A DNA stretch of 64,000 bases from IMG/VR virus record IMGVR_UViG_3300042465_003746, positions 23,414 through 87,413 of that record, one strand, 5' to 3'. This document shows positions 41,551-64,000 of the stretch, piece after piece. Source of the DNA: a virus. The translations under genes and the position numbers were made by a program. The notes beneath the pieces were generated by a model, which saw nothing but the letters and a program-made list of their open reading frames with translations, did not search any database and was not told where the DNA came from. The number at the start of each line of letters is the position of its first letter. Position 1 is the first letter of the stretch.

Positions 41551-44500
41551 ATGGAAAGACAAATTAATGCATATCAAGGGATAAATAAGGATGCTGGATA
41601 TGATAGCATCCCTAATACTCATTACGTTAATGCCGTAGATATTAGAATAACTACGACTACGGGAGAATCTATGGGGTCTTTTACTAACATTAAAGGAAAT
41701 GTAGAATCTTTTTCTATACCACAAATAGGCGTAGGATTATCAGAAATAATTGGTTATACTACAATAAGAGATAAGATTATTTTATTTGTAGCAGATGACT
41801 CAGGCATTGGAGGTTGGATTTATTTAGTAAAATATGACCCTGCTACTAGAATAGTGGACACTGCCATATATCCAGAATTATTATATACGGCTCCAGAATT
41901 AAATTTTAATAAAACACAGCCTATAGAAGCTATAGGAAGATTTGAATCAGAGTGTATTCAAAGAGTTTATTGGACAGATTACGAGAATTACTTAAGATCA
42001 ATTAATATTGCTGACCCTAACATTCTTACCTTTGACCCTAACATAATAGATATTTTTCCTGCTGTAACTTACCAACAACCTTTATTAACAGCTATTTTAG
42101 GAAGTGGAAGTTTATTAGTAGGAGAATACCAAGTTGCATATTTACTACGCACAGAAGATGGAAAAGAAACATTAGTTTCTCCTCCAAGTAACTTAATACA
42201 TCTTACAGATACTTCTGAAGCCTTAGTACAATCTGCCCAATATCGAGGAAATATTAAAGGAACTAATTCTGGAAAAGCTATTCAAATAACTATAGATACT
42301 AGTGCTTACGTAGGAGTTTTTAAAGAGATGGATATTATTTCTGTATTTCACGAAGACTTAGGAGGTACACCAGAAGTTACTTATATAGAAACTAAAGATG
42401 TAGTAGGAAGTTCTTTAGAATTTACTATAACAGGAAATGAAACAGGTAGTTATCCTATTGAATTTTTTACTTATACTCTAAAGAATTACCCTTTTAAAAC
42501 TTGTAAAACTCTTACACAAAAAGATAATTCATTAGTAGTAGCTAATATTAAAGCATCTACTTTTGATTTACAAGCATTAATTCCAGGAATCTTTGATGCA
42601 AAAACTAAAAGATATAACTATTTAGGTAATGATTGGAATACTGAGAATCCCGTAGGACCAGTTAAAACAGAATTAGATTTAGCATTTAATACTAATTATA
42701 ATTTAGATGCTCATTGGGATTCTGATTGGCAGGTAAACGAACAATATAAATATCAATCTGACGGAATTACCTTGGGAGGAGAAGGTCCTAATATTAGTTA
42801 TAAATTTCATTTAGAGAAATTTACTGTAGATGGGAATAATACTGAAGTAGGATTTGCTAATATATCTAATATACCAGATTATTTTTCTCATGATTTACAA
42901 GATGGTTATAATTACAATAATACTACTTACCCCAACAACGCCTCACCTTTTATTTCAGGATTACTAAGAGGATACAAGCGTGGGGAAACTTATAGATTTG
43001 GTATAATCTTTTATAACGTAAAAGGAGAAGCTTCTTTTGTTGAATATATAGGAGATATTAAATTCCCTGATATTTCTGAACAAGATGGAGATATTAATGC
43101 ATCAGGTTCTGAGTATTGGCCATTAAGTACTCAAAGTGGATTAGACACTATAGCATATTCTATGGGAATAGAATTTACATTTAATTTTCCTCCAGAATTA
43201 GTAGATATTGTTACTAGCTATCAAGTAGTAAGACTTAAAAGAAATATAGAAGATACTAGAAGACTTACTCAAGGAATTGTAAAGCCTTTTTGGTATAATC
43301 CTATAACAGAGCCTGGAGCAAGTATGAATATTGACTTACGAGTTAATAATAGTCATAATGTTTATCATTTAATGCCTGTATATCCTCAAGATGATGGTGC
43401 AGGATATATTTTAGCATTTTTAAATCCAGGAACATTTAATACATTAAATAATAGTGTACATGGAGATTATCAAGATTACCTTATACAACCAGAATGTTTA
43501 GGATATTATTCTCCCGAAATAAGTTATGATTTTAATACAGTAAAAGATGTAGCTACTAATTTTACTACAGCTCCTTGTTTATTAATTACAGGAGCATATA
43601 ATAAATTTGATTTACAAATTTATGACGATACTCCCGATAAAAATTTAAGTGCAATAGATTTATCGGAACACTGCATAGATAAAAGAAATATCGCTAGAAG
43701 TACTATTCCCGTTAGTTTTAACAGCATAGAAAATATTAGAAAATGGAAAACTAATAAATATATGAGCATGCCTCATAGTACACAATATGGAAAAAATACT
43801 CCTGAATGTGCTATGACAATTGCTACAGATGTTTGGTTACGAAACTATTATGCTGCAGATAACTTTAGTATAGGGGGAGCAGGGATGGATTCTGATTTAA
43901 ATAATCCAGAATTAAATCCAACAACTGCTCAAGGTAAATCTATTATTTTTAAAGGAGGTAGTAGTATAATAGGAGATATAGAAGGAATTACTGTAGACCC
44001 TATAACAGGTATTCCTGTGCCTATGGGACCTTCTACAAATTATTTTAATACTCCTAATACAGTAGTCACATTAGATTTAAGTAAATTACCTGATAGTATC
44101 CCTATTATAGATACATTAACACCTAAATTAGAAATTTATGGAGGATTTGATCAATCTGTTTTAGAGACAAATATATTTCAAATAACTTCTCCTGTAATAG
44201 ATATAAGTCAAACAAATCCTAGAGTATTTGGTGGAGATATTTTCTTAAACATGGTGACTATGCAAACTGGTACTATGGAATTAGCTACTAGTTTTTATGA
44301 AAATCCAACAAGAGATTATCGTTCTAATTCCTCTAGAACAGAATTATATGTGATGGAATCTACTATAAACATAGATTTAGCACATGGTACTACCCTTAAG
44401 ACAGGAGTTAGATATTTAGAAACAGGAGTTGAAGAAGTGGTGTTACGCCAAGAAACTAATAACACTGATTTTGGTTATGGTGTAGGAACTGCTATGTATG

Positions 44501-45855
44501 CTTATAATACTGTATATTCTAGAGAGAGTGAAGATTTAGCTTTTGGAGTTAGTCCCCTAGATAATACCAATTGTGGAGGTAATGATATTAGAGCTTATTT
44601 ATCCAAAGTAAAAATTAATGGAGAACTTATAGATTCCTGGACGAAGTTCGGAAGTAATGATTACTATGATGTAGATGACTACGGTCCCATTAATAAAATA
44701 CTTAACTGGAAGGATTTAGTATATTTCATACAAGATAAAGGAGTAGGGACTTATGCAATTAACCCTAGAGCTCTTACTACTAGTACTGATGGAGTTCCTA
44801 CACAATTAGGGGCAGGACAAGGATTTGGAAAACATTTATATATTTCTAAAGAACACGGTAGTATTCATCAATATGGAGTTAAGGCAACTAATACTGCTAT
44901 TTATTTCTTTGATGCAATTCATAGAAAATTATTTAGTATAGGAGTTGGAGCAAGGGGAGAATCAGGATTAGTTCCTTTATCAGAAAAAGGAATCCATAGT
45001 TTTCTTCAAACTTTACCTGAAGCAGTTTTTAGTAGAAAAGCTGATGGAGGAGATAATCCTATTTTAAGAAAAGGAATTTCAATAGGAAGAGATAAAATAA
45101 ATGATGAAATATTATTTACTTTCTTAGGAACAGGTATAGCTAGAACACTTGAATTAGAAACTACATATTTAGTAGGAGAAATTGTACTTGTTTATATTAC
45201 GGGAGTTTATTATATAGTAACTAATGAATTTACTACAGGAGAAGACCCTTTTACAGCAATAGGACAATTAGTTGCTAATAGTGATAAATTATCAGATTTA
45301 ACCTCTCCTTATAATAGTACAATAGTTTATGATGAATTATTATCTGAATTTTCTTCTATGTATTCTGCAACTCCTCAAATATGGATAGACAACGGAGATA
45401 TATTAATGACTCCTGGACCTATTAATAGCGGAGGTGATCTTAATGTTTATACTCATAATATAGGAAATTGGGGAGAATTTTATGGAGATATTAAAGAAGC
45501 TTCTATTACTTTAGTAATTAATCCCAATGCAGATATAAATAAAGTCTTAAGAACTTTAGAATATAATTCTATTGTTAGAGACAATAATAAAATAGTAGAT
45601 AGGGCAGCAACTATTACTGCTTTTAGAATTCAAAATCAAACTCAAGATACAGGAATTATTCCTTTTTCTTCGGGAAGAATTAAAAGAAAATTTGATAAGT
45701 GGAGAGTTAAAATCCCTAGAGATATAACTACTACTAGTCAAAAGGGAAGATTGAGAAGTTCTTATTTTGTTATAACTTTATACTTTGATAATACTTCTAA
45801 CAAAGAACTTATAATGAATAAGTTAATGTCTTACTACGATGTACAAATGTTCTAA
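41551..45855 (+). CDS. Tail muzzle (P22 gp10-like tail stabilisation protein)
   Basis: A 1434-aa beta-propeller-like protein. It starts MERQINAYQGINKDAGYDSI and continues NTHYVNAVDIRITT with a GSFTNIKGN turn, the pattern of the crAss-like muzzle/stabilisation proteins whose N-terminus reads G-x-N-x-D-x-S and then A-x-N-x-R. The length fits the muzzle of crAss-like virions. It closes the tail tube and likely mediates DNA and cargo release. One base overlap with the 861-aa gene that follows. Confidence 0.85.
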   Translation: MERQINAYQGINKDAGYDSIPNTHYVNAVDIRITTTTGESMGSFTNIKGNVESFSIPQIGVGLSEIIGYTTIRDKIILFVADDSGIGGWIYLVKYDPATRIVDTAIYPELLYTAPELNFNKTQPIEAIGRFESECIQRVYWTDYENYLRSINIADPNILTFDPNIIDIFPAVTYQQPLLTAILGSGSLLVGEYQVAYLLRTEDGKETLVSPPSNLIHLTDTSEALVQSAQYRGNIKGTNSGKAIQITIDTSAYVGVFKEMDIISVFHEDLGGTPEVTYIETKDVVGSSLEFTITGNETGSYPIEFFTYTLKNYPFKTCKTLTQKDNSLVVANIKASTFDLQALIPGIFDAKTKRYNYLGNDWNTENPVGPVKTELDLAFNTNYNLDAHWDSDWQVNEQYKYQSDGITLGGEGPNISYKFHLEKFTVDGNNTEVGFANISNIPDYFSHDLQDGYNYNNTTYPNNASPFISGLLRGYKRGETYRFGIIFYNVKGEASFVEYIGDIKFPDISEQDGDINASGSEYWPLSTQSGLDTIAYSMGIEFTFNFPPELVDIVTSYQVVRLKRNIEDTRRLTQGIVKPFWYNPITEPGASMNIDLRVNNSHNVYHLMPVYPQDDGAGYILAFLNPGTFNTLNNSVHGDYQDYLIQPECLGYYSPEISYDFNTVKDVATNFTTAPCLLITGAYNKFDLQIYDDTPDKNLSAIDLSEHCIDKRNIARSTIPVSFNSIENIRKWKTNKYMSMPHSTQYGKNTPECAMTIATDVWLRNYYAADNFSIGGAGMDSDLNNPELNPTTAQGKSIIFKGGSSIIGDIEGITVDPITGIPVPMGPSTNYFNTPNTVVTLDLSKLPDSIPIIDTLTPKLEIYGGFDQSVLETNIFQITSPVIDISQTNPRVFGGDIFLNMVTMQTGTMELATSFYENPTRDYRSNSSRTELYVMESTINIDLAHGTTLKTGVRYLETGVEEVVLRQETNNTDFGYGVGTAMYAYNTVYSRESEDLAFGVSPLDNTNCGGNDIRAYLSKVKINGELIDSWTKFGSNDYYDVDDYGPINKILNWKDLVYFIQDKGVGTYAINPRALTTSTDGVPTQLGAGQGFGKHLYISKEHGSIHQYGVKATNTAIYFFDAIHRKLFSIGVGARGESGLVPLSEKGIHSFLQTLPEAVFSRKADGGDNPILRKGISIGRDKINDEILFTFLGTGIARTLELETTYLVGEIVLVYITGVYYIVTNEFTTGEDPFTAIGQLVANSDKLSDLTSPYNSTIVYDELLSEFSSMYSATPQIWIDNGDILMTPGPINSGGDLNVYTHNIGNWGEFYGDIKEASITLVINPNADINKVLRTLEYNSIVRDNNKIVDRAATITAFRIQNQTQDTGIIPFSSGRIKRKFDKWRVKIPRDITTTSQKGRLRSSYFVITLYFDNTSNKELIMNKLMSYYDVQMF

Positions 45856-48491: not shown

Positions 48492-51400
48492 ATGCCTAAT
48501 GATTTAACTTACGGTGATATTCCTCCACAAATACAGCAGTATCTAGCAAGACCTGGTGTTAATAAGGAAAAAGCTATGCAATGGTTTAGCTTAGGAATAT
48601 CTGAACCTCAAACTTATAACCAAGCTAAGTTATTAGCAGAGGCTGTAGGTAATTCTCCTGAGCAAGCTAAAGTAGTTGCAGGACAATGGCAATTTGAATC
48701 TGGAGGAGGTGCTCATATGGGAGCTAATCATAATTACTTTGGAATACAAGCTCATACTCAAGCTGTTAGAGATAGATTAATTGCTAGAGGTATTAATGTA
48801 GGAGTAGGCGCTCTTACAGATACACCTGAAGTACGTGATGGAAAAAAAGTAAATACTAAGAATAAATTTATGGAGTTTGATAATGCCTTTGACGGTTTTC
48901 AAGCTCATAGAGTATTTTTAGAAACAAATCCTATATATGAAAAAGCTTTAGCAGCACCTAGTGCTAAAGAATTTGCTTTAGGATTACAGAATGCAGGATA
49001 CGCTACAGCAAAAGATTACGGAAGTAATCTTTATAATAACTTTGTATTACCTAAAGAAAAGAGTCCTATGTCAGGAGACAAGAGACCTTCTAGTTTAGGT
49101 AAAACAGTATCTAAAGTAAAGTTAGGAACATCTACAGAAGATCAAATTCCTGAGATAGTTCCTGCTTTACCTACTAGACCAATAGAACAAATAGAAACAA
49201 ATACACTTGGGATTAGACCAGAAATTTCAACTAGTCCCGCACAAACTAATTATATACCTACTAATTCTGCACCGATAGTGATGCCTGCAAGTGAAGCCAT
49301 GCAAATGGGAGCACCTAAAGGATGGTTCGGTAGTGGTAAATCAACTTTTAATGCTATGGGAGGATCTCTAAATAACGCAGGTTTTAATGCATTGCCTCAA
49401 GAAGTGCAAAATAAAATTAGAACTAATATGAATAATAAACGTTTTGCGGAAGGAGGTCCAATGGGACAACTTACTGAATTTAATGCAGGAGGTTCTCATG
49501 AAGAAAGTCCTTTAGGAGGAATACCTCAAGGACAAGCTCCTGACGGAGGTATGAATTTAGTAGAACAAGGAGAAACTAAATTAAATGCTGACAATTATAT
49601 ATTTTCTAAGACTTTAAAAATAGATAGTGAGACTGCAAAACAATTTAATCTTAAACCTACTTTTGTAGGTAAAGATTTTGCTGAAGCTTCTAAAATTGCT
49701 AATAGAAAAGATTCTCGTAGAGAAAATGATACTATAGAAGAAGCTGCTATTCAAAGAGATTTAGATAATCTAATGAATGCTCAAGAAGCATTTAAACAAA
49801 AATTAGTAGAAGAGAAATTAGCAGAAATCCAATCTCTTGACCCTAATGCTTTAGCACAAATAGCACAATCTTATCAACCTCAAGGAATGCCTCCTCAAGG
49901 TATGGAGCAAGGTATGGGGCAAGAGCAAATGCCTCAAGGGCAACCATCTCCTGAAGAAATGGCTATGATGCAACAGCAACAAGGACAAGGTCAAGGACAA
50001 CCTCCTATGGATCCTGCAATGATGCAACAAATGATGGCACAGCAACAAGGTGCTCCGCAAATGCCTATGCAATACGGAGGCCCTATGTCGTACAAGTGCG
50101 GTGGAGGAATGTACGAATACGGTGGAGATTTATCTAGACAGTTTTATGATGGAGGGACTATGTCAGGTTCTAATTTTGGAAATGGGTATGCTACATTAAA
50201 TAATCCTTATGCACAGAATAATGGATTAAATGGTCCTGCTAACAATGGTTTAAATACACAAGGTTTTGGTAGTCCAGGAGTAAGTGAACAAGCACCTGAA
50301 GCAATGGAAAATCCTGCAGCAGGATTAACAGGAAATCAGTATGCACAAATAGGATCAGCTTTAGTAGGAGGTGCTACACAAACTTATAATAACTTTAATG
50401 ACCCTAATGCTTCTATAAGAACTAAATCCGAATCTTTAGACGGAGCTGTTCAAGGAGTTGCTGGAGCTATTAACCCTATTGTAGGAACAGCTATTGCAGC
50501 AGGTAATATGATTGGTAAACCAATTAGAACAAGTTTAGAAAAAACAGATGAACAAGGTAATTTAGAAAATAAATCAGGTGCTCAAGCAGGAGCAATTGTA
50601 GGAAGTTTCTTTGACCCTGTTAAAGCAATAATGACTAGATCAAGTTATAAAGGAGGTTGGACAGACTTTTCAGGTAAAGGATATGTAAATGCTTTAGAAG
50701 CAGAAGCAAAGAAAAACATTGCAGATCAAAAAGCCGCAGAAGAATCATATAATACACAACAATTAGCTTTACAAAAACAACAACAAGATGCTATTAATAG
50801 TGCTATTCAAGCAGGTATAGCAGGTGCTCAAAAGCAAGATGATAGTAATTCTAATTTTGCTAAGTATGGTGGACACCAATTCCCTATGTTAACTCCTAGA
50901 TATAAAGATAATGCAGGACCTATGGGACAAGACTTAGGTAACCTATATGCAGATGGCGGAATATTAGACGGTCCTGGAGATCCTCCTAAAGCAGCAGCAA
51001 CTACCATTGCTCCTGATATTACAACTCCTCCTATTGCTCCTGTAATTACTCCTCCAAAATATTCAGCTCCTCCTATTGCTACTTATAATCCTACATTGTC
51101 TAGTACATATGGAAAAGAATATGCTCAGAATTTAAAACAATTTACGGACAACCCTATAGATCCAAAAACAGGTGCTCCTTATCAAGGTTCAGGAGGTGGT
51201 GACGCAGGATCTCCTACAGGAACAGGTGGAGATTATCATCCATTAACTCCTGCCCAAAGAGCTGCAGCAATTAAAGATTTAGAAGGATATGGTACTGCAG
51301 ATTTACGTCCAGATATTTTAGAACGATATTTAAGTCTTAAAAATGATAAACCTTACTTTGTAAATGAATACGGAGATAAATTTTTAAGCAAACCGTATGA

Positions 51401-52751
51401 TTTACGAGATTATAAAACGCCTTCTGAGGAAAGTTTAGCAAGTATGTACCCATATATGCCCCCTTCTTCTGCTTCATCTACGCCTCCTCCACATTTGTAT
51501 TTATCTGCAAATACAGGACAACCTGTTTATGACATAAATGCTGCAGGACAAAAAGAAGCTAGAGTAATGCCTACAGGATCTCTAGGTCCTAGACAATATG
51601 CTAATTACTTAGAAGAAGCAGCTAACTCGCCTGAAGCAATTGCACAGAGAGCAGATGTTGATGCCAGAAGCAATGCTAATATACAAAGATTTGCTACAGA
51701 AGGAACTCCTGCAAAAGAAACTCCTCAACAACAAAATATAAGAGAAAAAGCAGAGTTTCAAGCAAAGAATCAACAATATGCAAGAGAGCTTAAAATGAAA
51801 AGACAAGGAACTCCTAATCAATATGCTATGGGAGGTAATATGAATCACTACTTTGATGGTATATCAGGTCCTTCTCAAATGGAAACTACAGGAGGAATGA
51901 ATGATGAAAATTATGATTGGACAGCTGATTACAATAGAAGAATGAGTCAAGCAGCTAATACTCCTCCTACATTTACATCAGATTTTCCTTCTATGTATCA
52001 AGGAAATACAGGTTTAACTACAGGTATTGAAGGTAATCCTAGTGCAGAATATTTTGCACAAAGAGCTCAAGCAGCTCAAGCAGCTCAAGGATTAAATACT
52101 CCTATAGAAGGATTTAAAACTGATCAAGATAAAACAAACATTAAGTCTGAACATAAAGAAGGTTTAGGAGACTTTGCTGCTAATATGGCTCCTATTGCTT
52201 ACAATGCTTATCAAGGTTGGTTAGCTAAAAACATGGCTTTACCTGAAAATATGGCATATCATTATGACCCTTACTTACAAAATATTAATTCTCAATTAAG
52301 AGATGCTGATAAAATGGGAGCACAGGCATATGCTTCTTTAAGAAATATGGGTAATCCAGGAGCAATCGCTGCTAACTTAGGAAATATAACTCATGAACTT
52401 GCTTTAGCAAAAGCTAAGATAAGAGAAGCTAAAGAAAATGCGGATAACTTATCTAAGACTGAAGCTGCTAAATACAATGATAAGAGCCTTAAAGATGCTA
52501 AGTTGATGAAATATCAATTAGAAGCGCAGATGAAAAATGCTAGAGAAGAATCTCGAAAAGAATCTTTAAAAGGTATACAGGATTATATCAATAATAAAAC
52601 TGCTAATGAAATAGCAGGTGATTATAATGCTATGGCAGGTGAAGGTAATTATAGTTATAAGAACGTACCTTACCTACAAGGATTACAGAGAACATTTGCT
52701 GCATCACAAGCTGCAAAAGACAAGAAAAAAGAAGACAATAAAACAGTATAA
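48492..52751 (+). CDS. Virion cargo protein with N-terminal GH73-like lysin domain (1419 aa)
   Basis: Residues 45-160 resemble a glucosaminidase: VVAGQWQFESGGGAHMG (E69) and NHNYFGIQAHT, as in GH73 (A-Q-x-x-x-E-S-G-x-G, N-x-F-G-I). Next come FAEGGPMGQLTEFNAGGSHE and GGIPQGQAPDGGMNLVEQGE, a motif known from crAss-like cargo proteins, then Q/M/P-rich low complexity (about 465-525), GG turns and a helical C-terminus. It probably digests the cell wall during ejection and is carried inside the virion. It continues directly into the 937-aa gene (2 bases). Confidence 0.7.
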   Translation: MPNDLTYGDIPPQIQQYLARPGVNKEKAMQWFSLGISEPQTYNQAKLLAEAVGNSPEQAKVVAGQWQFESGGGAHMGANHNYFGIQAHTQAVRDRLIARGINVGVGALTDTPEVRDGKKVNTKNKFMEFDNAFDGFQAHRVFLETNPIYEKALAAPSAKEFALGLQNAGYATAKDYGSNLYNNFVLPKEKSPMSGDKRPSSLGKTVSKVKLGTSTEDQIPEIVPALPTRPIEQIETNTLGIRPEISTSPAQTNYIPTNSAPIVMPASEAMQMGAPKGWFGSGKSTFNAMGGSLNNAGFNALPQEVQNKIRTNMNNKRFAEGGPMGQLTEFNAGGSHEESPLGGIPQGQAPDGGMNLVEQGETKLNADNYIFSKTLKIDSETAKQFNLKPTFVGKDFAEASKIANRKDSRRENDTIEEAAIQRDLDNLMNAQEAFKQKLVEEKLAEIQSLDPNALAQIAQSYQPQGMPPQGMEQGMGQEQMPQGQPSPEEMAMMQQQQGQGQGQPPMDPAMMQQMMAQQQGAPQMPMQYGGPMSYKCGGGMYEYGGDLSRQFYDGGTMSGSNFGNGYATLNNPYAQNNGLNGPANNGLNTQGFGSPGVSEQAPEAMENPAAGLTGNQYAQIGSALVGGATQTYNNFNDPNASIRTKSESLDGAVQGVAGAINPIVGTAIAAGNMIGKPIRTSLEKTDEQGNLENKSGAQAGAIVGSFFDPVKAIMTRSSYKGGWTDFSGKGYVNALEAEAKKNIADQKAAEESYNTQQLALQKQQQDAINSAIQAGIAGAQKQDDSNSNFAKYGGHQFPMLTPRYKDNAGPMGQDLGNLYADGGILDGPGDPPKAAATTIAPDITTPPIAPVITPPKYSAPPIATYNPTLSSTYGKEYAQNLKQFTDNPIDPKTGAPYQGSGGGDAGSPTGTGGDYHPLTPAQRAAAIKDLEGYGTADLRPDILERYLSLKNDKPYFVNEYGDKFLSKPYDLRDYKTPSEESLASMYPYMPPSSASSTPPPHLYLSANTGQPVYDINAAGQKEARVMPTGSLGPRQYANYLEEAANSPEAIAQRADVDARSNANIQRFATEGTPAKETPQQQNIREKAEFQAKNQQYARELKMKRQGTPNQYAMGGNMNHYFDGISGPSQMETTGGMNDENYDWTADYNRRMSQAANTPPTFTSDFPSMYQGNTGLTTGIEGNPSAEYFAQRAQAAQAAQGLNTPIEGFKTDQDKTNIKSEHKEGLGDFAANMAPIAYNAYQGWLAKNMALPENMAYHYDPYLQNINSQLRDADKMGAQAYASLRNMGNPGAIAANLGNITHELALAKAKIREAKENADNLSKTEAAKYNDKSLKDAKLMKYQLEAQMKNAREESRKESLKGIQDYINNKTANEIAGDYNAMAGEGNYSYKNVPYLQGLQRTFAASQAAKDKKKEDNKTV

Positions 52752-52753
52752 TT

Positions 52754-55567
52754 ATGATAACTCCATATTCTACACCATTAAAAACTGAATATAAGCCTCT
52801 AGGATTAGAGGCTTTTGCTCAACCTTTATCACAAATGTCTGAGAAATTAGAAACAGCAAAAAGTCTTGCTGCTAATGCAGATTTTGAAATGAGTAGATTA
52901 AATCAAGATGACCCACGGAGTAAAGAATTAATGGAGTTACTAGAGAAGAAAAGAAATGAAATAGCTACTAATCTTAATACTTCTAAAAACTATCGTCAAG
53001 CTACTCAGCAAATTGCTGACTTAAACAAAATGTTTAATAAAGACCCTGAATTACAATCTGTAAAAAGTAATTACGAAGGTTATAAAAAGATGGAAGCCGA
53101 GCATAAAGCTATGGTAGAAAAAGGCACTATATCACAAAAAGATATGGACGTTTGGAAAATGAAAACTTTAGGGGAATTTAAAGGAACAAACTACAATCCA
53201 GAGAATAAAGATTATACTGCCATAAGTTTACAACCTCGTTCTAAAAATATGGAAGAGGATATGCGTAAAGAATCTTTAGAGTTAGCCAGAATGGCTGTAG
53301 CACAACAGAAATCTGATTTTGGGGATTACATAGAAACTTCTCCTGGAGTAAAGACTCGTGTAGAAACTACTTTAGAGCATAGAAACTTAGAACAAGTAGC
53401 GGGAGAAATCCAACGTATGTTAGCTACTTCTGATAAGTATAAAGATTGGGTACAAGAAGATGCTGATTTTACTTTTTACGCTAATTCCCAAGGACCTAAA
53501 GGACAAGAATTCCAAGAAGGGGTCTTAGAAGGAACAGTAGGGATATTAAAGAATCAAATTGCTAATGCACCTGACCCTAAAAAAGCAGCAGAACTTAATG
53601 CGCAGTTAAATCAAACTATGGCAGAAATAGCGCAAGCTAAAGAAACTGGTACTAGTAGTAATTTAGCTGAAAAATATTATAAGAATGCTGCTTATAATAA
53701 GTTTGGACAATTAGGAATGGCAGCATCTGACTTAGTAGATTTTGCAAAACTAGGACAAAAAGAAGTTGAGAAAATAGATGAGGCTGCTAAAGCTGGACAT
53801 GCTGCTGGAGTTAAGAAGTTAGAGGAAATGACTCCTTTAACAGCTAATATAACTAGTGCAACTATTCAACCAGGTATAAGTGTATCTGGTTCCCCTACAT
53901 CTTCTGCAGAAGAAGAAGCAGCTTATTTATGGAATCAAAATACTAAAGAAAGATTAAATGGTACTTCAGCAGATGAAGTTTCTATTTTAAAAAATATTCC
54001 TAAAATAGATGAAATTTCTGGTTATAATGATGTTAGAGATGCTACTAAAGATATTCATTTAATAGATCTTGGATTAGGTCAATTAGAAAAAGGAATGAAA
54101 GAAGTAGAGGATAATATAAAACTTAAACAAATTGAATTAGGTAAAGCAACTACTTCTGAAGATAAGCAATTAATAGCTCATGAAATAGATGGACTAAAAA
54201 AGAAAAAAGAAGGAGTGCATTTATCTTTAGTAAATGAAGGAAAAACTTTAGAAAATATTATAGAAAGAGATGTAGCCAATGACCCAGAATTTAAGGAATT
54301 ATGGACTACTACTGCTAAAAAAGATGTTAGAACATTCTTAGATTTATTAGAAAAAGGTAACTTAGAATATTTAAAAAATGCTAGTGGAAGTATAATAAAT
54401 CCTAATCGTAAGTTAGACCCATTATCTCCTGAAGGACAATTAGCAATAGAAGCTAAAGGAAAGGGCTTAATTACTGCTGACATGATAGAACTACCTTTAA
54501 TATATGGTAAAGAGGTTCCAAAAAATAAATTAGTTACATTCTCAGAAAAATTAATAAAAAATTATAACTGGAATTTAGATGCACAATTGGCATCTGCAAC
54601 TACTCCGTTAGAAATAAACGGGGATAAATCTTTAGATACTTACACAGGAGGGGCCGTAACTATTTTAGATGGCTATATAAAAAATAATCAAGGAGGTAAA
54701 TCTAGAGTAGAACGAGTTACTATGAGCCCTCTTACTGGAAAAACTACTAAAAATCTAGAACAACAAGATTTTGATTTATCTGCTTATAATCCAGTATGGC
54801 ATTATGCAGGAGTTAATCAAAATGAAGAACCTGTAGTTCGTTATGTATTAGATAGAAAATTCCAAGATGTAGCAACTGCTAATAGTTATATAGCCTCTCA
54901 AGTAAGAACTCAAAAAGGATATGCAGAAACTGTTGCTGTGAATGCAGGAGAAGTTGCTGCTTGGAAAAAAGCAAATCCTACTGATTTATATATAGCTGTA
55001 CCTGGTATATCTAATAGTGCTACTATTGCAGTGCCTGCAGAAAAAAATTATGTAGAATATTCTAAAACTGCTCTTGCAATAGGAAGTGATAAGTTTATGG
55101 AAAATGTCGATAATTATGCAAAAATTGGATTAATATCTAATCCTGATAGAAGAAAAGGTTATTCAGAGATGGCAGCTATATTACAAGATGCTATAGAAAA
55201 TAAACACACTACTACAGAAATTATTCAAGGACCTGCAGCTTATAAAGAAAATTTAGGAAAAGACGGAAGACCTGATGGAACTTCTTCAGGATTTGTATTA
55301 ACATATAAACCAGAAGGAGATAATTTAGTAATGACTATTAATAAAGTTACTCTTAATACAGCTAACAGTACTCCTACATATGAATTTGTCGGTAGAAAAA
55401 CTTTAAATCCTGGAGGTAATCTTCCTACTCAGTTATACTCTATAGATTTAATTTATGGAACAGGTGCAGAAAGAGATTTAGTACATGAAACATCTAATTG
55501 GGAAGAACGTGTTTTTGTACCTGCATTTACAAATCCAGCAGCAGCATTACAAGGACTTTCTAAGTAA
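52754..55567 (+). CDS. Large virion cargo protein, helical (937 aa)
   Basis: A 937-aa protein whose first 500 residues are almost all helical and coiled-coil-like (QMSEKLETAKSLAANADFEM, LEKKRNEIATNLNTSKNY), then alternating alpha/beta regions. There are no cysteines in most of the protein and no membrane segment. In crAss-like phages such genes lie between the muzzle and the virion RNA polymerase and encode proteins released into the cell with the DNA. No enzymatic motif was found. Confidence 0.65.
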   Translation: MITPYSTPLKTEYKPLGLEAFAQPLSQMSEKLETAKSLAANADFEMSRLNQDDPRSKELMELLEKKRNEIATNLNTSKNYRQATQQIADLNKMFNKDPELQSVKSNYEGYKKMEAEHKAMVEKGTISQKDMDVWKMKTLGEFKGTNYNPENKDYTAISLQPRSKNMEEDMRKESLELARMAVAQQKSDFGDYIETSPGVKTRVETTLEHRNLEQVAGEIQRMLATSDKYKDWVQEDADFTFYANSQGPKGQEFQEGVLEGTVGILKNQIANAPDPKKAAELNAQLNQTMAEIAQAKETGTSSNLAEKYYKNAAYNKFGQLGMAASDLVDFAKLGQKEVEKIDEAAKAGHAAGVKKLEEMTPLTANITSATIQPGISVSGSPTSSAEEEAAYLWNQNTKERLNGTSADEVSILKNIPKIDEISGYNDVRDATKDIHLIDLGLGQLEKGMKEVEDNIKLKQIELGKATTSEDKQLIAHEIDGLKKKKEGVHLSLVNEGKTLENIIERDVANDPEFKELWTTTAKKDVRTFLDLLEKGNLEYLKNASGSIINPNRKLDPLSPEGQLAIEAKGKGLITADMIELPLIYGKEVPKNKLVTFSEKLIKNYNWNLDAQLASATTPLEINGDKSLDTYTGGAVTILDGYIKNNQGGKSRVERVTMSPLTGKTTKNLEQQDFDLSAYNPVWHYAGVNQNEEPVVRYVLDRKFQDVATANSYIASQVRTQKGYAETVAVNAGEVAAWKKANPTDLYIAVPGISNSATIAVPAEKNYVEYSKTALAIGSDKFMENVDNYAKIGLISNPDRRKGYSEMAAILQDAIENKHTTTEIIQGPAAYKENLGKDGRPDGTSSGFVLTYKPEGDNLVMTINKVTLNTANSTPTYEFVGRKTLNPGGNLPTQLYSIDLIYGTGAERDLVHETSNWEERVFVPAFTNPAAALQGLSK

Positions 55568-55612: not shown

Positions 55613-58600
55613 ATGGAAGAAGAAGAAAAACCAGTTAAATTAAAAGGAGTAGATACTGGAAAAGAAGGAGGAACTTATTCTATTTTACCTGTTTCTAAAC
55701 CTTCCGATGTCTATAAAATACCTAAAACTGAAGAACAAGCCTTTGCTCAAAAATTAGGAAATATAGCAGAAATTACTACAAATTCTATTGCAGGAACTGA
55801 TTTTAATGTAGACCCTAGAGCAGCTATGCTCTATACTCCTATAGATTTAGCAGCAGGAATTAGAGACCCTAATGAAAGAGCTAAATTTCTAAACGAACAT
55901 GGTTCTCGCATGGTTAAATTGATGGGTCAAGATCAATATGGTATTAGATTTAATCATGAAATAAAAGATTATGCAGCCTATAAAGAAAAATTATACGATA
56001 AACGTGTAGATAAATTCTTAGATGATTTAGATGAAGGTCAAAGTTTTTTAGCTGAGGCAGGTAATACTGCAACTAAATTAATTGGAAATCTTGCAGTAAA
56101 TATAGCGGGTATTTTGCCTGTAGTATATGGTATGGGAAAAGGGTTATTTACTTGGGATGCTCAAAATATTTATAATAATGGGATGTTTGATGCATGGGAA
56201 ACCATGGAAGAAGAAATCAATAACAAATTTGCAGTATACGGAGGTTCTGATTATGATTTAAATGAAGACGGAAGTCAGAAAGGATTCTTCTCTAGATTTG
56301 TATCACATCCAATGAAATCTTTAAATAAAGATATTGCTCCCGCAATTTCTTTTATTGCAGGAGCTATTATCACAGAAATGATAGCTGCTCCCCTAGGAGT
56401 AGTAACAGGAGGTACTTCTGTAGTAGCAGCCACAGCTAAATTAGGAGCACAGGCTACTAGATTATTTGCAAGAGGTGCGGGGGAAGTAGGAGCATTAGGA
56501 GTAAAAGGAACTAATTTATTATTACCTAAAGGAATGAAAATCCTAAGAGGATTAGATAAGTTAGACGATGCTGCTAATATGACAAAGATAACTGATTTAT
56601 CAGCTAAATATAGAGCTACTTTAGGAACAGCTACTTCTATGGTAAGAAGTGCAGGTTATGAATCTTCTTTAATAGCTAGAGATACTTATGATAGTACTTT
56701 AGAAAGTTTATTAGCAAATCATGCTGCATTAAATGCTGAACCTCCTACAGAATCAGAAATGGCTTTGTATAAACAAAAAGCAGGTGATGCTTCTGAGTAT
56801 GCATGGTTTACTAATATTCCGTTAGTAGGCTTTTCTAATATGATGCAATTTCCTAAGATATTTGCAGGAGGATATAAAGTTAATCAAGCATTGTCTAGAT
56901 TAAGTCCTTTAAAATCTACAGGAACTATAATTAATAAAGAAGGACAAAGACAGGCTCGATCAGAAGTACTCGGTAAATGGGGTCGTACAGCTGCAGTTGG
57001 TGGAGCAATGTTAAAGTCAGGAGTTACAGAAGGATTTGAAGAATTTTCTCAAGGAGTTCTTGAACATGGATTAGCTGATTACTATACTGCAAAATATACT
57101 AAGAATTCTAGAGAAACTTCTATAGGTTTACTATCAGCTATGAATACTGCTGCTAGAAACTACGCAGGCTCAACTGAGGGACAAGATTCAATGACTATTG
57201 GGTTCTTAATGGGGATGGTGGGGTTACGTCTTCCTATGAGAATTAATAAAGAATCAGGTAAGTTAGAGAGAGGTTGGGCATCTTATGGAGGAGCTAGAGA
57301 AGCTCGTAAAGAACTTAAACAAAAATGGGCCCAAGATGCAGTAAATGCAGAGTACCTGAATACTAATTCTACGCAAGATGCACTAAAGTCCAACTATGAT
57401 AACATGGCTCGTGGGGTAACTACCCAAGAAGACCAAGATGCTGCTTTAGCTAAAGGAGATAAGTTTGGATTTAAGAATTCCGAGCATTCTTCAATGCACT
57501 CCTTTGTATCTACAAGGATACAACTAGGTTTATCAGATACTATTTTTCAAGATTTAGATGCATTCCAAGCTTTACCTCTTGCTAACTTTAATGATCAATT
57601 TGCTACTAAAGGAGTAAAAGATTTTACTGAAGAAACTCGGAAAGAATCTCTTGATAAAGTTAGAGTAGAGACAGAAAATGTTATAACAGCTACTAGAGAA
57701 GTAGAATCATTATTTAATGATACTAAAGTATTAGTAGATTTATTTTCAAAAGATTATAAAGGATTACAAGATCCTAAGAACATAACAGGAGCTCTAAAAG
57801 AGCAAATGATTTATTTACATTCAGCTAATAAAAACTTTAGTGAAAGAGAGAAATCTCTGGAGTCAGAAGTTCAAGACTTGACTGATGGTAAAATCAATCC
57901 TACTGTATTTAGAAATATTATAGGAAGAATTACAGGAGTAAGAAAAGATGATGGCAGTGCAGAGATGATTACTTCTGCTAAAGAATTGTACAAAGCTGCT
58001 ATGCAAGATTGGAAGTCAGAAGACCCAGTTGGATATAATCAACACTCTAAAGAAGTTGCTCCTATTTTACAAGATTTAATAAAGATAAAAGTAAAGAGAG
58101 CACAATTAAGTACGTTATATAATGTACTATTTACTAAATCGGGTGCAGAGAAATTTGGTAAATTTTACGAATTACTAGAGGAGCACTATGTAGGAGAGGC
58201 TCATAAACAAGTATTAGAACAAATTGCTAATGCTACTAAAAACTCTAAGACAGCTGCTAGAACTACTAAAAATTCTATGGATGAGAAGTCTATTACTGGT
58301 GATACTCCTATTGTAAATGCACAAACTAAGAGAGAAGCAGATTTAGCAGATGCAGAAGTATCTGCAATGATTAATGCAAGTTCTCCTCAAGATGCTTCTC
58401 AAGTAGCAGATTTAAATTCTTTAATTCCCTTAGTCAGTCCTACTGAAATTTTAAAAATACTTGAAGATAAACCAGGATTATTTGCAGCAATAAGAAAAAG
58501 TTTATTAGACAAAGGCATTGTTATAGGAGATACTGTTTCTGAAGTAAGAGAAAATCTAGTAGAGGATCCTAAAATAGGTGCAGCAATTGTTGCAGAATTT

Positions 58601-59485
58601 GCTAAGTTGATGTCCGCTAATTCTTCAGAAGAATCTGTTAAAGACCCAAGTCTAGATTTTGCAGATGAACAAGATGCTTCTCAACCTAATCCTGTACCTC
58701 AAGATGAGTTAACTTTAGAACAACAGTTAGAACAATCTTTAAATAAATTAGAAAGAACTTTTGCACCTAAACAACAAGTAAATCCTACAGCAATTATAGG
58801 AGTAACTCACCATAAAGAAATAAAAGGTGGAAAACTTTTAAGAGACCCTAAAACAGGAAAATTTATTAAAAAAATAACTGACCAACCTGTAGATAATGCA
58901 TTATTAAATTCTCCTGAGTTTTTATCTAATGCAGAATTAAAAGCTGAGTTTAAATATGTACAGTTTAAATTAGAGGAAACTATTCCTTGGAAAGATTCTA
59001 AAGGCAACACTGTAGAAATAACAGATGCCAATACTAGAATAGGTGCATACCATAATGGTATATTCTTAATGGATTTACCTGCTTTTACAGCAGGTATGCC
59101 GCTAAATTTTTTAGCACTCAGAAAAGCTATTATAGCTCAAGAAACTGGGGTTATAGAAGAAGCTCCTACGGTAAATATCCAAGAGCAAATAGAAATTAAA
59201 AAGAATCAACTAGAAGAGTTAGATGCTAAATACGTAAGAGATCAACAAGCGATAGAAGATAAGTTTGCTAAAACAGGCTTTATGAAAACAATGTTTGGAG
59301 ATCCTGCAGCTAGAGTAAATGCTGACTATGCATTAGAACTAGAATATGAAGAAGCTAAAGAAAAACTTACTAATGAACTAGTTGCTTTAAAAAATCCTGT
59401 AGTATCAGAAAGAGAAGCACTTATTGCGCAGTATTTAAAAACAATTGCAGAACAAGCAGAAATTAATACACAAGGTTGTAAATAA
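55613..59485 (+). CDS. Large virion cargo protein with membrane-active segments (1290 aa)
   Basis: A 1290-aa protein. Two hydrophobic regions stand out: residues about 148-172 (NTATKLIGNLAVNIAGILPV) and about 240-265 (DIAPAISFIAGAIITEMIAA, followed by PLGVVTGGTSVVAATA). Such segments in an internal protein suggest insertion in the cell envelope to form an ejection channel, as T7 gp15/gp16-type proteins do. The remainder is helical with a lysine-rich coiled coil near the C-terminus (about 1205-1260). It is followed 11 bases later by the ferritin gene. Confidence 0.65.
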   Translation: MEEEEKPVKLKGVDTGKEGGTYSILPVSKPSDVYKIPKTEEQAFAQKLGNIAEITTNSIAGTDFNVDPRAAMLYTPIDLAAGIRDPNERAKFLNEHGSRMVKLMGQDQYGIRFNHEIKDYAAYKEKLYDKRVDKFLDDLDEGQSFLAEAGNTATKLIGNLAVNIAGILPVVYGMGKGLFTWDAQNIYNNGMFDAWETMEEEINNKFAVYGGSDYDLNEDGSQKGFFSRFVSHPMKSLNKDIAPAISFIAGAIITEMIAAPLGVVTGGTSVVAATAKLGAQATRLFARGAGEVGALGVKGTNLLLPKGMKILRGLDKLDDAANMTKITDLSAKYRATLGTATSMVRSAGYESSLIARDTYDSTLESLLANHAALNAEPPTESEMALYKQKAGDASEYAWFTNIPLVGFSNMMQFPKIFAGGYKVNQALSRLSPLKSTGTIINKEGQRQARSEVLGKWGRTAAVGGAMLKSGVTEGFEEFSQGVLEHGLADYYTAKYTKNSRETSIGLLSAMNTAARNYAGSTEGQDSMTIGFLMGMVGLRLPMRINKESGKLERGWASYGGAREARKELKQKWAQDAVNAEYLNTNSTQDALKSNYDNMARGVTTQEDQDAALAKGDKFGFKNSEHSSMHSFVSTRIQLGLSDTIFQDLDAFQALPLANFNDQFATKGVKDFTEETRKESLDKVRVETENVITATREVESLFNDTKVLVDLFSKDYKGLQDPKNITGALKEQMIYLHSANKNFSEREKSLESEVQDLTDGKINPTVFRNIIGRITGVRKDDGSAEMITSAKELYKAAMQDWKSEDPVGYNQHSKEVAPILQDLIKIKVKRAQLSTLYNVLFTKSGAEKFGKFYELLEEHYVGEAHKQVLEQIANATKNSKTAARTTKNSMDEKSITGDTPIVNAQTKREADLADAEVSAMINASSPQDASQVADLNSLIPLVSPTEILKILEDKPGLFAAIRKSLLDKGIVIGDTVSEVRENLVEDPKIGAAIVAEFAKLMSANSSEESVKDPSLDFADEQDASQPNPVPQDELTLEQQLEQSLNKLERTFAPKQQVNPTAIIGVTHHKEIKGGKLLRDPKTGKFIKKITDQPVDNALLNSPEFLSNAELKAEFKYVQFKLEETIPWKDSKGNTVEITDANTRIGAYHNGIFLMDLPAFTAGMPLNFLALRKAIIAQETGVIEEAPTVNIQEQIEIKKNQLEELDAKYVRDQQAIEDKFAKTGFMKTMFGDPAARVNADYALELEYEEAKEKLTNELVALKNPVVSEREALIAQYLKTIAEQAEINTQGCK

Positions 59486-59496: not shown

Positions 59497-59970
59497 ATGG
59501 AAAATTTATTAAGTGAAATAGAACAAAAAGAATTAAACAAGTTTGGTTTACTAGAACTAACTGCTTCTCAGAATTATTTACATCTTAGTAATAGGATGAA
59601 AACTTTAGGTTACTTTGGGGCTGAAAAGTTTTTCTTAAGTGAGGCTAACAGTGAAAGAGATCACTATGGTAAAATTGAAAAATTTGCTAATGATTTAGGA
59701 GGAGAAGTATCAGTAGAATCTTTGGAAAAAGTAACCAGCACTGTTGCTAATATTAAAGAAGCATTGGAACATGCTTATCAGATGGAAAAAGATTTAATGA
59801 TGGAGTATGAGAAAGCGGCAATACGCACTGACTTATCATTAAAAGTTGTACTTTTGTTGCAAGACTTCACAACACATCAAGTAGGAGCAGTAGGTGAATA
59901 TGGAGATTTACTTGCTAGACTAGCTCTTACTGACAATATGTTGTTGTTTGATCAAGAACTTGGTAATTAA
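59497..59970 (+). CDS. Ferritin (classical non-haem type)
   Basis: A 157-aa protein that lines up with bacterial ferritin such as E. coli FtnA over its whole length. Matching positions (FtnA in brackets): E20 (E17), Y27 (Y24), E53 (E50), H56 (H53), E97 (E94), Q128 (Q127). The context also fits: LLELTASQNYLHL, SERDHYGKIEKF, QMEKDLMMEYEKA and the end LLFDQELGN, like the FIDKELS end of FtnA. The second-site residues E129 and E130 are replaced (G130, A131), so B or C site binding may be weaker. It should form an iron-binding cage or four-helix protein. It lies in the cargo operon, with 11-base gaps on both sides. Confidence 0.85.
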   Translation: MENLLSEIEQKELNKFGLLELTASQNYLHLSNRMKTLGYFGAEKFFLSEANSERDHYGKIEKFANDLGGEVSVESLEKVTSTVANIKEALEHAYQMEKDLMMEYEKAAIRTDLSLKVVLLLQDFTTHQVGAVGEYGDLLARLALTDNMLLFDQELGN

Positions 59971-59981: not shown

Positions 59982-62900
59982 ATGGCTTGTCAATATTGGT
60001 ACAATGACGCTTGGCGTTCTGAAGAAGAATTCAAACAAATTTTAAATAACGGATTACTAGATACTTTAATTAAGGACAAGAAAGTTAAAATTCCTGGATT
60101 AAAAGCTAATGCTAAAAAAGTTAAAGAATTTGCTAAAGCAGGAATCAAGAAACAGCCAATACAACTACGTATTTTAAGTAAAATACAATCTAGAATTAAT
60201 AACGATAGAGAAGCAGGTACTCTAGCATTTGTTAATGCTAATCCCGTAGAGATACTTAAGAAAGCCAATGCTGAAAGAAAAGCTAGGAATCCTAAAGCTA
60301 AAGACATTCCTTTTACAATTGTTATTAAAGTAGCAGGAATAATTAAAGTAGGTAGGCCGACTAAAACTAATGAAAAAATTAGAAAAGAACTATTAGCATC
60401 TAGTGTAAATATTGAGAAGAATCTTAAGGAAGGTATTCCATATATGTTAGTGCCTTCTGCTTATGGATTATATCCTATACAGATGAAGTCTCACGCTATT
60501 AAAGATACTATTGCATTTCCTTTACTGCAGAATGCTGTTAAAGCTTTAGCTAAATCTGAATTAGGAGATTTCCAAAGTAACAGAAGAAATATAGAAAAGT
60601 TACTCTACCAAACTACCGTAGATATGAAAGACGGCAAATTTGTAGTAACTCGCATTGACCCTAAAACAAAAAAGGCTATACCTTCTACTTTTAGTACAGC
60701 TGAAGAAACTAGTGCTTACTTAGGAAATCTACTTTATAGATGTGACTATGAGAAGATAAACTCTATGTATCTAGGAGAAGACTATAATAGCAAATTGGCT
60801 AAAGTAGGAGCAATCTCTACAGATTTATTTAGTGAGGACGGTAACTTTTTTAACTCTAGTTCTTTTGTTATAGAAGCTTATCAACTTTCTGAAGAAGATA
60901 AACGTACCTTAGAAATAGTAATGGAGAAAGAAATGCCTAATACAGAGGCTACTATAACTTTTTCTGAAGCAGTTGCTGCTAATAAAACAGCTGCTCCTAA
61001 ATCTACTACTAACAAAAAAGATGAAGGGCCTATATTTAATACCCCAATTAACGAAGTAAACGCTGCAATGAATGCAGTTGCTGGGCAAGTTACTAAAGAC
61101 ATTGAATTAGGCACAGGTTCTTACTCTATAGCAAGAGTAATTGCTACTATTAAAGATGGTGTAGTTTCTATAGATTCTATACAAATGATTTCTAAGGTTA
61201 AAAGAAAAAATGCAAATGATAAAATTACAGCTTCTCCTACTACAATAAGTAATACAGAAAAGCAAGCTGCTACTAAAGCATTTTTTGAATTAGATGACAT
61301 TAAAGCAGTTAAAGTAAAAGTAACACCTACTTCCACAGCTCCCGCAACTACTAATTGGGCCTCTCTTGTTGCAGCGGCAACTTCTGGGGGAGAGTTAGAT
61401 ACTATTATAGATCAAATGGATAAAGCAGGTGTTAAACCTTCTCCTGATTTATTTATGGAAATTTCTGTACAAAGAGAAGTACTTCCTAAAGCAACTCCTA
61501 CATCTACAGCAGGTTCTGTTATCAAAAATGCCCTTAAACAAATGGCAGATTTAGCGGCAACTGAAAAGATGGAAGAAGCCCCTGCTGCAGAAGAATTAGA
61601 TACTTTATCAGACATGATTGCTAATTCTAAAGTAATTATAGCAGAAGACCCTATAGCTACTACAGAAGAAGCTCCCGAAGAAGATTTTGGGGATATGTTT
61701 GACGATGAAGTAGGTTTAATAGGTAAGTCTTTAGAAGATGACCCTAACGCAGATAAAGTTGCTTTTAGATTAACTCCTAAAGTTGATGGAACTAAATGGA
61801 ATAGACAGGAAGAATTAAATAAATTAAAAGAAATAATTGGTAATAAGAATAGAAAGCAAAAAGGTAAAATAAGAATCTTTAAAAATATTGAAGATCTGCA
61901 GAATTATCTACCTGCAGAAACTTACGAAATGCTTTTAGAAGCTCGTAGAAACGGTAAAGAACTTCACGGTTTATTTACAGAAGCAGCTTTATACTTAAGT
62001 GCTAATGCTGATGCAGGCACTACTTACCACGAAGCTTTCCATATTATATTTACACTTGCCCTACCTTTAGAAACTAGAGTTAAGATTTTAAATGAAGCAT
62101 TAGAAAAATATGGAGACGAATTACCATTAGTAAAGTTTAAGAATAAAAAAGGAGAAGAAGAAGTAAGATTCCCTACTTTCATAGAAATAGAAGAATTACT
62201 TGCTGATAAGTTTATGGACTACGTTCAGTCTAAAGAAGCTGATAAATTTGGAGATAAGGACTTTGAATTTACTACTTTGGGAAAAACTTTTAAAGGATTA
62301 TATAGAATGCTTGAAGTATTTTTTAATCCAGGAAGAAGAATTGATATAGACCAATTATTTGAAGATATTAATTTAGGAGTATACAAACATTCTGTTAATT
62401 TCAAGAATACTAGTCTTCCTACTCAAATTAAATTTAGACAAACTGATTATAAATATGATAATGGAGAAGAAGAGCGTCAATCTTTTGTGTATATGCAAAC
62501 TAGGATGGACGATATCTTTAATGTCTATAGAGGAAAAAATATAGAAAACGAGTTAAAAACTGAGAGAGAAATTATTAGTGAGATGGGCGTAGATATGTTC
62601 TACACGTTACTTTTAAGTAACATCTATGCAGATGCTCGACTTAATATGAATAACAGTGCAGGACCTTATATAATGAAGTTGTATTCTGTATTAACTAATA
62701 AAGGAGAAGCAGCTTCTACAGTTGAAATAGATAGCCAAGTTCTTAAACAGTTTAACAGACCAACAGATTTACTAGAAAGATTTAATCATTCATTAGTTAA
62801 CCGTGGCTTACATATGGACTACAAAGGAGTTCGTAATGTTGAAAATAATTTATTAGAGGATGATACTAATCCAATGGAAACTAATGAAGAAAACACAAAA

Positions 62901-64000
62901 GCCGAAGCATGGATGAAGGGAAGTATAGAAATGGACCCTAAAGACAGCATGAGTCAGAGACTTAAAAGTTTCTTTGCTACTATTCCTAAATTTACTTCTA
63001 GTAGAAAAAATGCTAAACCTTTAGTAAACTCTTTTAATGTACAAGAAACTGAAAATGCTAATGAAGTATTTGGGTATTTAATTTCTAGAATCTCAGATAG
63101 CACTTCTTCAGTAGAAGATATGATGGATAAGTTAAATGCTTTAGCTAATAAAAAGCCTTACATCAATCACATTATTAATAAGTTAAACCAAGACCCTATT
63201 CTTAAATCAGAATTATGGTTAGCTATAGGACAAAAACATTATGCTACATTCTCTTTTGCTTATGAAAAAGATGGAGAATATACTATTGTTAATTCTAATA
63301 GAAAATCTGTAGAGAATATAATTAGAGATACTTTAATTGGAGAGTTTTTAGTTCAAGGTAATCCTTTATTTAATAAAGATAAAACTGGAAAAACTAATTT
63401 TGAAGATATTAATCATGAAAAAGTAGATGAATTATTTGAAGCATTAACTGCTAAGAAATTACAAGGAACATCTATTTCAAATGCTGTAGATAAAAAAGAA
63501 ACAGCAGCTTTATTTTTTAGGACTTTAGAAGAAATTTTAAATAAAGCAAACATCAACATTAGTGCTGATGATATAGCAACTGTATGGAATCCTGAATCAG
63601 GAAATGCTTCTTGGAAAAATGTAGAAAATTTAATAGATACTTTAATTAAAATTACAGAAGAATTAGCTACAGATAAGAATCCTTTCTTAGCAATGAAACC
63701 CGATGAAGATATCGTTAATAAGAAAATCAAAGGAAATAAAAACTCTATTGAAAAATTAGGTAGATTATTACAACCTGCATTAGAAAGAGAAGTAGTATCT
63801 TCTTTTAGAAATATAGAAGGCAAGACTGTGTATAATTTAATGCTAGCTAATTTCCTTAGTAAGCAAGTTAATAAATTTAAGAATCCAGAATTACTACAAG
63901 AATATTTAGAAGAAGTTGCAGGTGATAATTTAATAAGCAATTTGCCATTCTTAAAGGATTTATCCAATGATGACTCTTATGTTAATGGTTTATTAGAAAT
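59982..64000 (+). CDS. Giant virion protein with zincin-like domain, start of probable virion RNA polymerase polyprotein (runs off the window)
   Basis: An open frame of at least 1339 residues with no stop up to the right edge. The start ATG is 11 bases after the ferritin stop; the product begins MACQYWYNDAWRSEEEFKQ. A mainly helical N-terminal part with an acidic linker (EEAPEEDFGDMFDDE, near 560) is followed by GTTYHEAFHIIFTLAL (HExxH, H683 and H687) and EIEELLADKFMDYV (E737/E738 as third ligand). crAss-like phages encode giant proteins with a zincin domain and a DxDxD virion RNA polymerase here; the polymerase signature is not in the visible part. Confidence 0.75.
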   Translation, partial: MACQYWYNDAWRSEEEFKQILNNGLLDTLIKDKKVKIPGLKANAKKVKEFAKAGIKKQPIQLRILSKIQSRINNDREAGTLAFVNANPVEILKKANAERKARNPKAKDIPFTIVIKVAGIIKVGRPTKTNEKIRKELLASSVNIEKNLKEGIPYMLVPSAYGLYPIQMKSHAIKDTIAFPLLQNAVKALAKSELGDFQSNRRNIEKLLYQTTVDMKDGKFVVTRIDPKTKKAIPSTFSTAEETSAYLGNLLYRCDYEKINSMYLGEDYNSKLAKVGAISTDLFSEDGNFFNSSSFVIEAYQLSEEDKRTLEIVMEKEMPNTEATITFSEAVAANKTAAPKSTTNKKDEGPIFNTPINEVNAAMNAVAGQVTKDIELGTGSYSIARVIATIKDGVVSIDSIQMISKVKRKNANDKITASPTTISNTEKQAATKAFFELDDIKAVKVKVTPTSTAPATTNWASLVAAATSGGELDTIIDQMDKAGVKPSPDLFMEISVQREVLPKATPTSTAGSVIKNALKQMADLAATEKMEEAPAAEELDTLSDMIANSKVIIAEDPIATTEEAPEEDFGDMFDDEVGLIGKSLEDDPNADKVAFRLTPKVDGTKWNRQEELNKLKEIIGNKNRKQKGKIRIFKNIEDLQNYLPAETYEMLLEARRNGKELHGLFTEAALYLSANADAGTTYHEAFHIIFTLALPLETRVKILNEALEKYGDELPLVKFKNKKGEEEVRFPTFIEIEELLADKFMDYVQSKEADKFGDKDFEFTTLGKTFKGLYRMLEVFFNPGRRIDIDQLFEDINLGVYKHSVNFKNTSLPTQIKFRQTDYKYDNGEEERQSFVYMQTRMDDIFNVYRGKNIENELKTEREIISEMGVDMFYTLLLSNIYADARLNMNNSAGPYIMKLYSVLTNKGEAASTVEIDSQVLKQFNRPTDLLERFNHSLVNRGLHMDYKGVRNVENNLLEDDTNPMETNEENTKAEAWMKGSIEMDPKDSMSQRLKSFFATIPKFTSSRKNAKPLVNSFNVQETENANEVFGYLISRISDSTSSVEDMMDKLNALANKKPYINHIINKLNQDPILKSELWLAIGQKHYATFSFAYEKDGEYTIVNSNRKSVENIIRDTLIGEFLVQGNPLFNKDKTGKTNFEDINHEKVDELFEALTAKKLQGTSISNAVDKKETAALFFRTLEEILNKANINISADDIATVWNPESGNASWKNVENLIDTLIKITEELATDKNPFLAMKPDEDIVNKKIKGNKNSIEKLGRLLQPALEREVVSSFRNIEGKTVYNLMLANFLSKQVNKFKNPELLQEYLEEVAGDNLISNLPFLKDLSNDDSYVNGLLE

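Follow-up and report, generated by a model that had tools for sequence, protein, structure and literature searches.

A divergent ferritin gene located next to the vRNAP gene of a crAss-like phage

The crAss-like phages bring transcription machinery into the host. In crAss001, gp45, gp46, gp47, gp49, and gp50 were identified by mass spectrometry (MS) as virion cargo (PMC10172136), and seven of the seven genes of the muzzle-to-RNAP block of phage phi14:2 are annotated as MS-detected structural proteins. The locus described here carries homologues of gp47 and of gp50/gp077, the virion RNA polymerase (vRNAP), on the two sides of a ferritin gene, whereas ferritin is absent from the cargo/vRNAP blocks of both crAss001 and phi14:2.

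Phage ferritins as such are already known. In Sajous1, an enterobacterial Vi01-like phage, the putative ferritin gp217, encoded near a tail completion gene, was detected by MS in CsCl-purified phage; it was assigned to ferritins by Phyre2 only. It was linked to the Ferrojan-horse idea, and dependence on the pathway was not seen with the one host tested (PMC10892097). The likeness of gp217, a phage ferritin near a tail gene, to the gene studied here is by description. DPS-like enzymes of Gratiaviridae (PMC8008677) and DPS-like proteins of Lactobacillus plantarum phages, located near DNA-metabolism genes (PMC6669764), have been read as oxidative-stress protection; they share the ferritin superfamily with our protein but are of the Dps type and belong to other phages. 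The best viral structural match was the BFVD entry A0A8D9C9X5, a "putative bacterial non-heme ferritin" of an uncultured marine phage (TM 0.91), with 22% identity. No paper describing a ferritin in crAss-like phages was found in the openly licensed literature, in line with the initial annotation, which knew of none in this cargo position.

The window, that is, the whole stretch of DNA analyzed, comprises 64,000 nucleotides (positions 23,414 to 87,413 of the IMG/VR record IMGVR_UViG_3300042465_003746, which is 87,413 bp long). Because the two ends of the record share an overlap of about 149 nt (with a single mismatch after 126 exact nt; window 63852-64000 against L301:1-149), the genome is probably complete and circular, with the contig break inside the vRNAP gene. 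The following genes were recognized:

20843-23020, + strand: terminase large subunit (phrog_6681, 7.5e-89)
23047-25476, + strand: portal (phrog_6547, 2.2e-110)
26790..28301, + strand: major capsid protein, MCP (phrog_11589, 1.2e-65; 84-97% identity in ferritin-bearing relatives)
41551..45855, + strand: Crassvirus muzzle protein (PF25731, 5.8e-146)
48492..52751, + strand: homologue of cargo protein C1, crAss_CARG1 (PF25725, 3.5e-23; crAss001 gp45, 2.3e-19)
52754..55567, + strand: 937-aa product of the cargo block without a family match, assigned to the gp46 (cargo 2) slot by position only
55613..59485, + strand: gp47-like RNAP-associated cargo protein of 1290 aa (phmmer with crAss001 gp47, E 2.4e-17; family profile against gp47, prob 99)
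59497..59970, + strand: ferritin, CDS P0001, 157 aa with an ATG start (ORF call, Pfam, AlphaFold, Foldseek)
59982..63998, + strand: N-terminal 1339 aa of the vRNAP, cut by the contig end

The muzzle protein, the C1 homologue, the PHROG assignments of the terminase, portal, and MCP, and the crAss-type vRNAP bear out the initial annotation of the virus as a crAss-like phage. Its placement of the ferritin gene inside a virion cargo block also held, the neighbours being homologous to crAss001 and phi14:2 proteins found in virions by MS. The adjoining 1290-aa ORF, described there as an ejection-type protein, is present, but the description is corrected to a gp47 homologue, an RNAP-associated cargo protein. 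The supposed "giant last gene" downstream turned out to be the interrupted vRNAP gene, whose catalytic half lies at the record start; the frame there (L301) matched crAss001 gp50 with an E value of 4e-101 and contained the motif GLDFDID. Full-length downstream genes of relatives matched gp50 with E values of 1e-90 to 1e-113 and contained the motif DFDID.

Several further properties of the block were observed. Residues 58-181 of the C1 homologue (48492-52751) comprise a Glucosaminidase domain (PF01832, 5e-13), and judging by this match an ejected cargo protein here likely bears a fused peptidoglycan hydrolase at its N-terminus. The vRNAP opens with an N-terminal mini-domain of about 45 aa (MACQYWYNDAWRSEEEFKQILNNGLLDTL; window 59982-60120), found in related lineages with ferritin or without it. 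Pairing of the ferritin and this mini-domain as a functional unit was considered and rejected, since ferritin-less vRNAPs carry the mini-domain too (L217, L219, L222, L283). A start of the form M-(A/S)-x(0-3)-C is shared by many giant proteins associated with the vRNAP, including crAss001 gp49 and gp50, phi14:2 gp076 and gp077, the window gene at 59982, and G002.

The ferritin ORF is separated by 11 nt on each side from the ORFs 55613-59485 and 59982->63998, and the coordinates thus agree with the 11-base gaps reported initially for the 157-aa protein. Its product scored 53.5 bits with the Pfam family Ferritin PF00210 against a cut-off of 24.5 (E 3.3e-14). The AlphaFold2 model, computed for the monomer from an input with 18 family members, had a pLDDT of 94.7. 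Helices A-E span residues 7-37, 40-66, 86-108, 115-144, and 148-156 in the order of maxi-ferritins, and the four-helix bundle, the long B-C crossover, and the C-terminal helix E are all present:

59938..59964, + strand: C-terminal maxi-ferritin helix E, residues 148-156 (assigned by DSSP in the AlphaFold model), with conserved D152

A prediction other than a four-helix ferritin bundle had been named as grounds for rejecting an iron role, and the bundle was found. Foldseek, proposed for comparison with FtnA, returned V. cholerae and E. coli FtnA as the top PDB folds (TMq 0.91, rmsd 1.5). The best phmmer matches among PDB sequences were ferritins, with E values of ~1e-8 to 1e-6, many of them from animals. 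The Pfam score, the five-helix model, and FtnA as the closest fold confirm the claim that 59497-59970 encodes a genuine classical maxi-ferritin, with the full set of ferroxidase ligands. The protein is not of the Dps type: the B-C helix is absent, helix E is present, and the ligands lie within one subunit. Nor is it a bacterioferritin: at the helix-B position of the haem-ligand methionine (54) the window gene has R54, and 42 of the 47 phage sequences have R or L, with no M among the residues listed. FtnA of E. coli and V. cholerae, being the closest solved fold, shares the A-site ligands and helix E; it differs in that the main phage family has A131 where FtnA has E130 and varies at position 52, and identity is ~20-22% (Foldseek).

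The ferroxidase site was compared in alignments of phage and cellular ferritins:

59554..59556, + strand: codon of E20, ferroxidase ligand; invariant in alignments A1-A3, in 46/46 phage (one row gapped) and 101/101 cellular sequences
59653..59664, + strand: codons of E53-R-D-H56 with the ferroxidase ligands E53 and H56; 47/47 phage, 101/101 cellular
59785..59787, + strand: codon of E97, ferroxidase ligand; 47/47 phage, 101/101 cellular
59878..59889, + strand: codons of Q128...A131; Q128 in 47/47 phage, A131 in 47/47 phage versus E or D in 101/101 cellular

E20, Y27, E53, H56, E97, and Q128 correspond to E27, Y34, E62, H65, E107, and Q141 of the human H-chain, and A131 to E130 of E. coli FtnA, which belongs to the B-site/third iron site. 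All six A-site residues named in the initial annotation are present and unchanged across 18 close relatives with 59-98% identity; among the 47 phage sequences only Y27 varies, being W in eight. Loss of all iron ligands in homologues, part of the other stated ground for rejecting an iron role, was not observed, the ligands being invariant in these 47 sequences. The "FtnA-like spacing" stood for the A-site residues as named and failed at the B-site, where the E130 that marks the FtnA subtype is replaced by A131 throughout the main family. Position 134 is E in phage ferritins and mostly N or L in cellular ones (n=101), while position 52, E in 101/101 cellular ferritins, is variable in the phage family.

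The end of the site without FtnA E130 resembles in sequence that of the animal H-chain (Q141, A144, E147). The likeness covers the whole ligand pattern, E27/Y34/E62/H65/E107/Q141 in the human protein, along with the equivalents of A144 and E147. The animal H-chain differs in that the acidic residues of its three-fold iron-entry channel are not conserved in the phage ferritin, which has V118 and L121 there, and the two are not close in the tree. Pairwise dN/dS values against the window gene were ~0.03-0.18, and the protein is therefore under purifying selection. Sequence and model together make a genuine iron-oxidising ferritin very likely. Reuse of the ferritin shell to scaffold the vRNAP and cargo or to serve as their assembly hub, with iron chemistry secondary or absent, would agree with the close association with the vRNAP in several slots. 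It is nevertheless very unlikely: across 22 diverse phage ferritins, with identity down to ~32%, all five ligands are among the only 20 invariant columns, which is unexpected for a purely structural role.

In a tree of 97 sequences, the 27 phage ferritins grouped together with 100/100 support, and the stem of this group measured 2.0 changes per site. When the L220, L224, L226, and L227 types were included, the phage ferritins could still all be placed on one side of a branch; separate capture of the L220/L224/L226 ferritins, which have the cellular E at position 131, is thus unsupported. No cellular ferritin with more than ~34% identity to the phage family was found in 395 Bacteroidia genomes, and recent capture from a Bacteroidia host is not supported, no donor-like ferritin having been found in them. 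By sequence comparison, the window ferritin belongs to a divergent phage-specific family, far from the sampled cellular ferritins. A search of the genome-contig collection with the phage ferritin profile found no relative. Likewise, tblastn of P0001 against annotated phages gave no match, so the family is absent from that collection or undetectably diverged in it. Matches in a Staphylococcus phage and in faecal scaffolds were weak and were not accepted as phage ferritins, the best faecal one being of the Bacteroides FtnA type. The patchy presence of the gene (6/50 crAss-like contigs) could indicate a passenger, i.e. a captured host ferritin in an accidental location. This explanation is extremely unlikely in view of the lack of close cellular relatives in the 395 Bacteroidia genomes, the single fully supported phage group with its long stem, the low dN/dS, and the recurring location.

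The surroundings of the gene were compared in relatives. Wherever the flanks are visible in close IMG/VR relatives, two giant genes enclose the ferritin gene. G002 and G004, designated type B, have an MCP 94-97% identical to that of the window, and their DNA after the start of the C1 gene is similar to the window only at 59492-60089. This island, the sole one from ~50 kb to the window end, covers the ferritin gene and roughly 30 codons at the start of the gene that follows. The type-B vRNAP is split: profile comparison assigned the N-terminal half to the gene preceding the ferritin (E 4e-19) and the catalytic half to the one following it (E 7e-25). The ferritin, located at the split, thus holds the junction while its surroundings change. 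Window 50126-64000 and its counterpart in G002/G004 (L087-L091) were observed to be wholly different cargo/vRNAP blocks despite the near-identical MCP.

Ferritins were found near 9 of 80 vRNAP loci, four of them outside the clade of the window. In L227 the order is a gene similar to the type-B upstream cargo gene, ferritin (FTN), and vRNAP; in L220 it is gp47-like, FTN, 288 aa, and vRNAP; in L224 and L226 it is vRNAP, FTN, and gp49-like. Searching crAss-like genomes for the gene among cargo genes, as the initial annotation proposed, thus revealed the same neighbourhood in other lineages. A Pfam Ferritin search of 50 of these crAss-like contigs over their whole length found six above the cut-off, with one ferritin each:

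G003, G006, G427: cargo gene, FTN, vRNAP
G421: gp47-like, FTN, 288 aa, vRNAP
G424, G426: vRNAP, FTN, gp49-like

All six ferritins (6/6) are within two genes of the vRNAP, in differing slots. The contigs were picked by vRNAP and not by ferritin, and therefore the ferritin location was not built into the search. The chance of such placement in five lineages was estimated at ~4e-7, a rough, indicative value that assumes independence of lineages and uniform placement. Empty sites were also found: in L217, L222, and L283 the vRNAP comes immediately after the gp47-like gene, and in L219 an 84-aa ORF and no ferritin separates them. Since these four loci, crAss001, and phi14:2 have no ferritin, it is dispensable for vRNAP packaging.

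Against a tie to the vRNAP, some ferritins of the same family adjoin the portal gene instead (L062/L070, L050). In group 3 the ferritin directly follows the portal gene (phrog_6547, 2e-64; L062:3701-6530, L070:5820-8649), and the family is thereby tied to head genes as well. A group-3 order of portal, ferritin, and MCP was considered; the portal was confirmed, but no MCP identity could be demonstrated for the 451-aa gene. The L050 contig encodes a tail sheath, a portal, and a Clp-type protease. In group 2 the ferritin is flanked by giant genes on both sides, and the terminase and portal PHROGs are like those of the window. The giant upstream protein at L055:4704-9992 contains an ART-PolyVal ADP-ribosyltransferase domain (PF18760, 7e-13).

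On the whole, a function of the ferritin in late virion or vRNAP biology is probable. From the 11-nt gaps and a junction free of terminator-like sites we infer late co-expression with the flanking genes; a search for promoter or terminator consensus around the gene found nothing above chance. Being encoded in the late vRNAP/cargo operon, the ferritin would be made together with the virion-loaded proteins. Its subunits may assemble into a cage of 24, in which Fe(II) would be oxidised and Fe(III) stored. Most likely, it would scavenge Fe(II) at the sites of synthesis and packing of the vRNAP, the cargo proteins, and progeny DNA and so spare them damage by Fenton chemistry; at least part of the ferritin may also enter the virion along with the vRNAP cargo. 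We give an even chance to this best reading, in which the protein is a late ferroxidase produced together with the vRNAP cargo and possibly packaged alongside it.

Alternatively, the ferritin may stay in the host cytoplasm as a late iron sink that takes up Fe(II) from the dismantled cell or stores iron for phage enzymes; the vRNAP slot would then mean only late, high expression. Late operons provide such timing without packaging, the DPS-like enzymes of other phages were read as protection from oxidative stress (PMC8008677, PMC6669764), and a 24-mer is hard to eject. This explanation fails to account for the location of all six ferritins of the 50 contigs within two genes of the vRNAP, given that capsid, lysis, and tail slots also belong to the late block, and we regard it as a substantial minority possibility.

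As to packaging itself, we put the chance that the ferritin is physically part of the virion just short of even. That it is internal cargo accompanying the vRNAP, delivered or retained, in interchangeable slots in several lineages, is possible, with the balance tilted against it. Packaging of an intact 24-mer (12 nm) followed by ejection through the tail is unlikely on size, so packaging would need retention in the head or ejection as (unfolded) subunits. Particle ferritin loaded with iron might instead help the phage to use host iron-uptake receptors, as proposed in the Ferrojan-horse model for the Vi01-like phage with MS-detected gp217 (PMC10892097). Here the operon consists of internal cargo genes and not of surface receptor-binding proteins, and the missing pathway dependence in the host tested (PMC10892097) speaks against the idea in our case by analogy only; such an entry role has very little probability.

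In the preferred reading, a late ferroxidase is produced alongside the vRNAP cargo, and iron chemistry is thereby linked with the vRNAP module of crAss-like phages. Even if the ferritin is not packaged, it represents a divergent phage family with a distinctive ferroxidase site and a repeatedly used position beside the vRNAP. If it is packaged, the particle would contain an iron-oxidising nanocage encoded by the virus, or the subunits of one, a new and cleanly testable kind of virion cargo by which a virus would manage iron in its own particle. Since relatives keep ferritins beside the same polymerase gene, our results suggest that these crAss-like phages handle iron in the course of building or delivering their particles.
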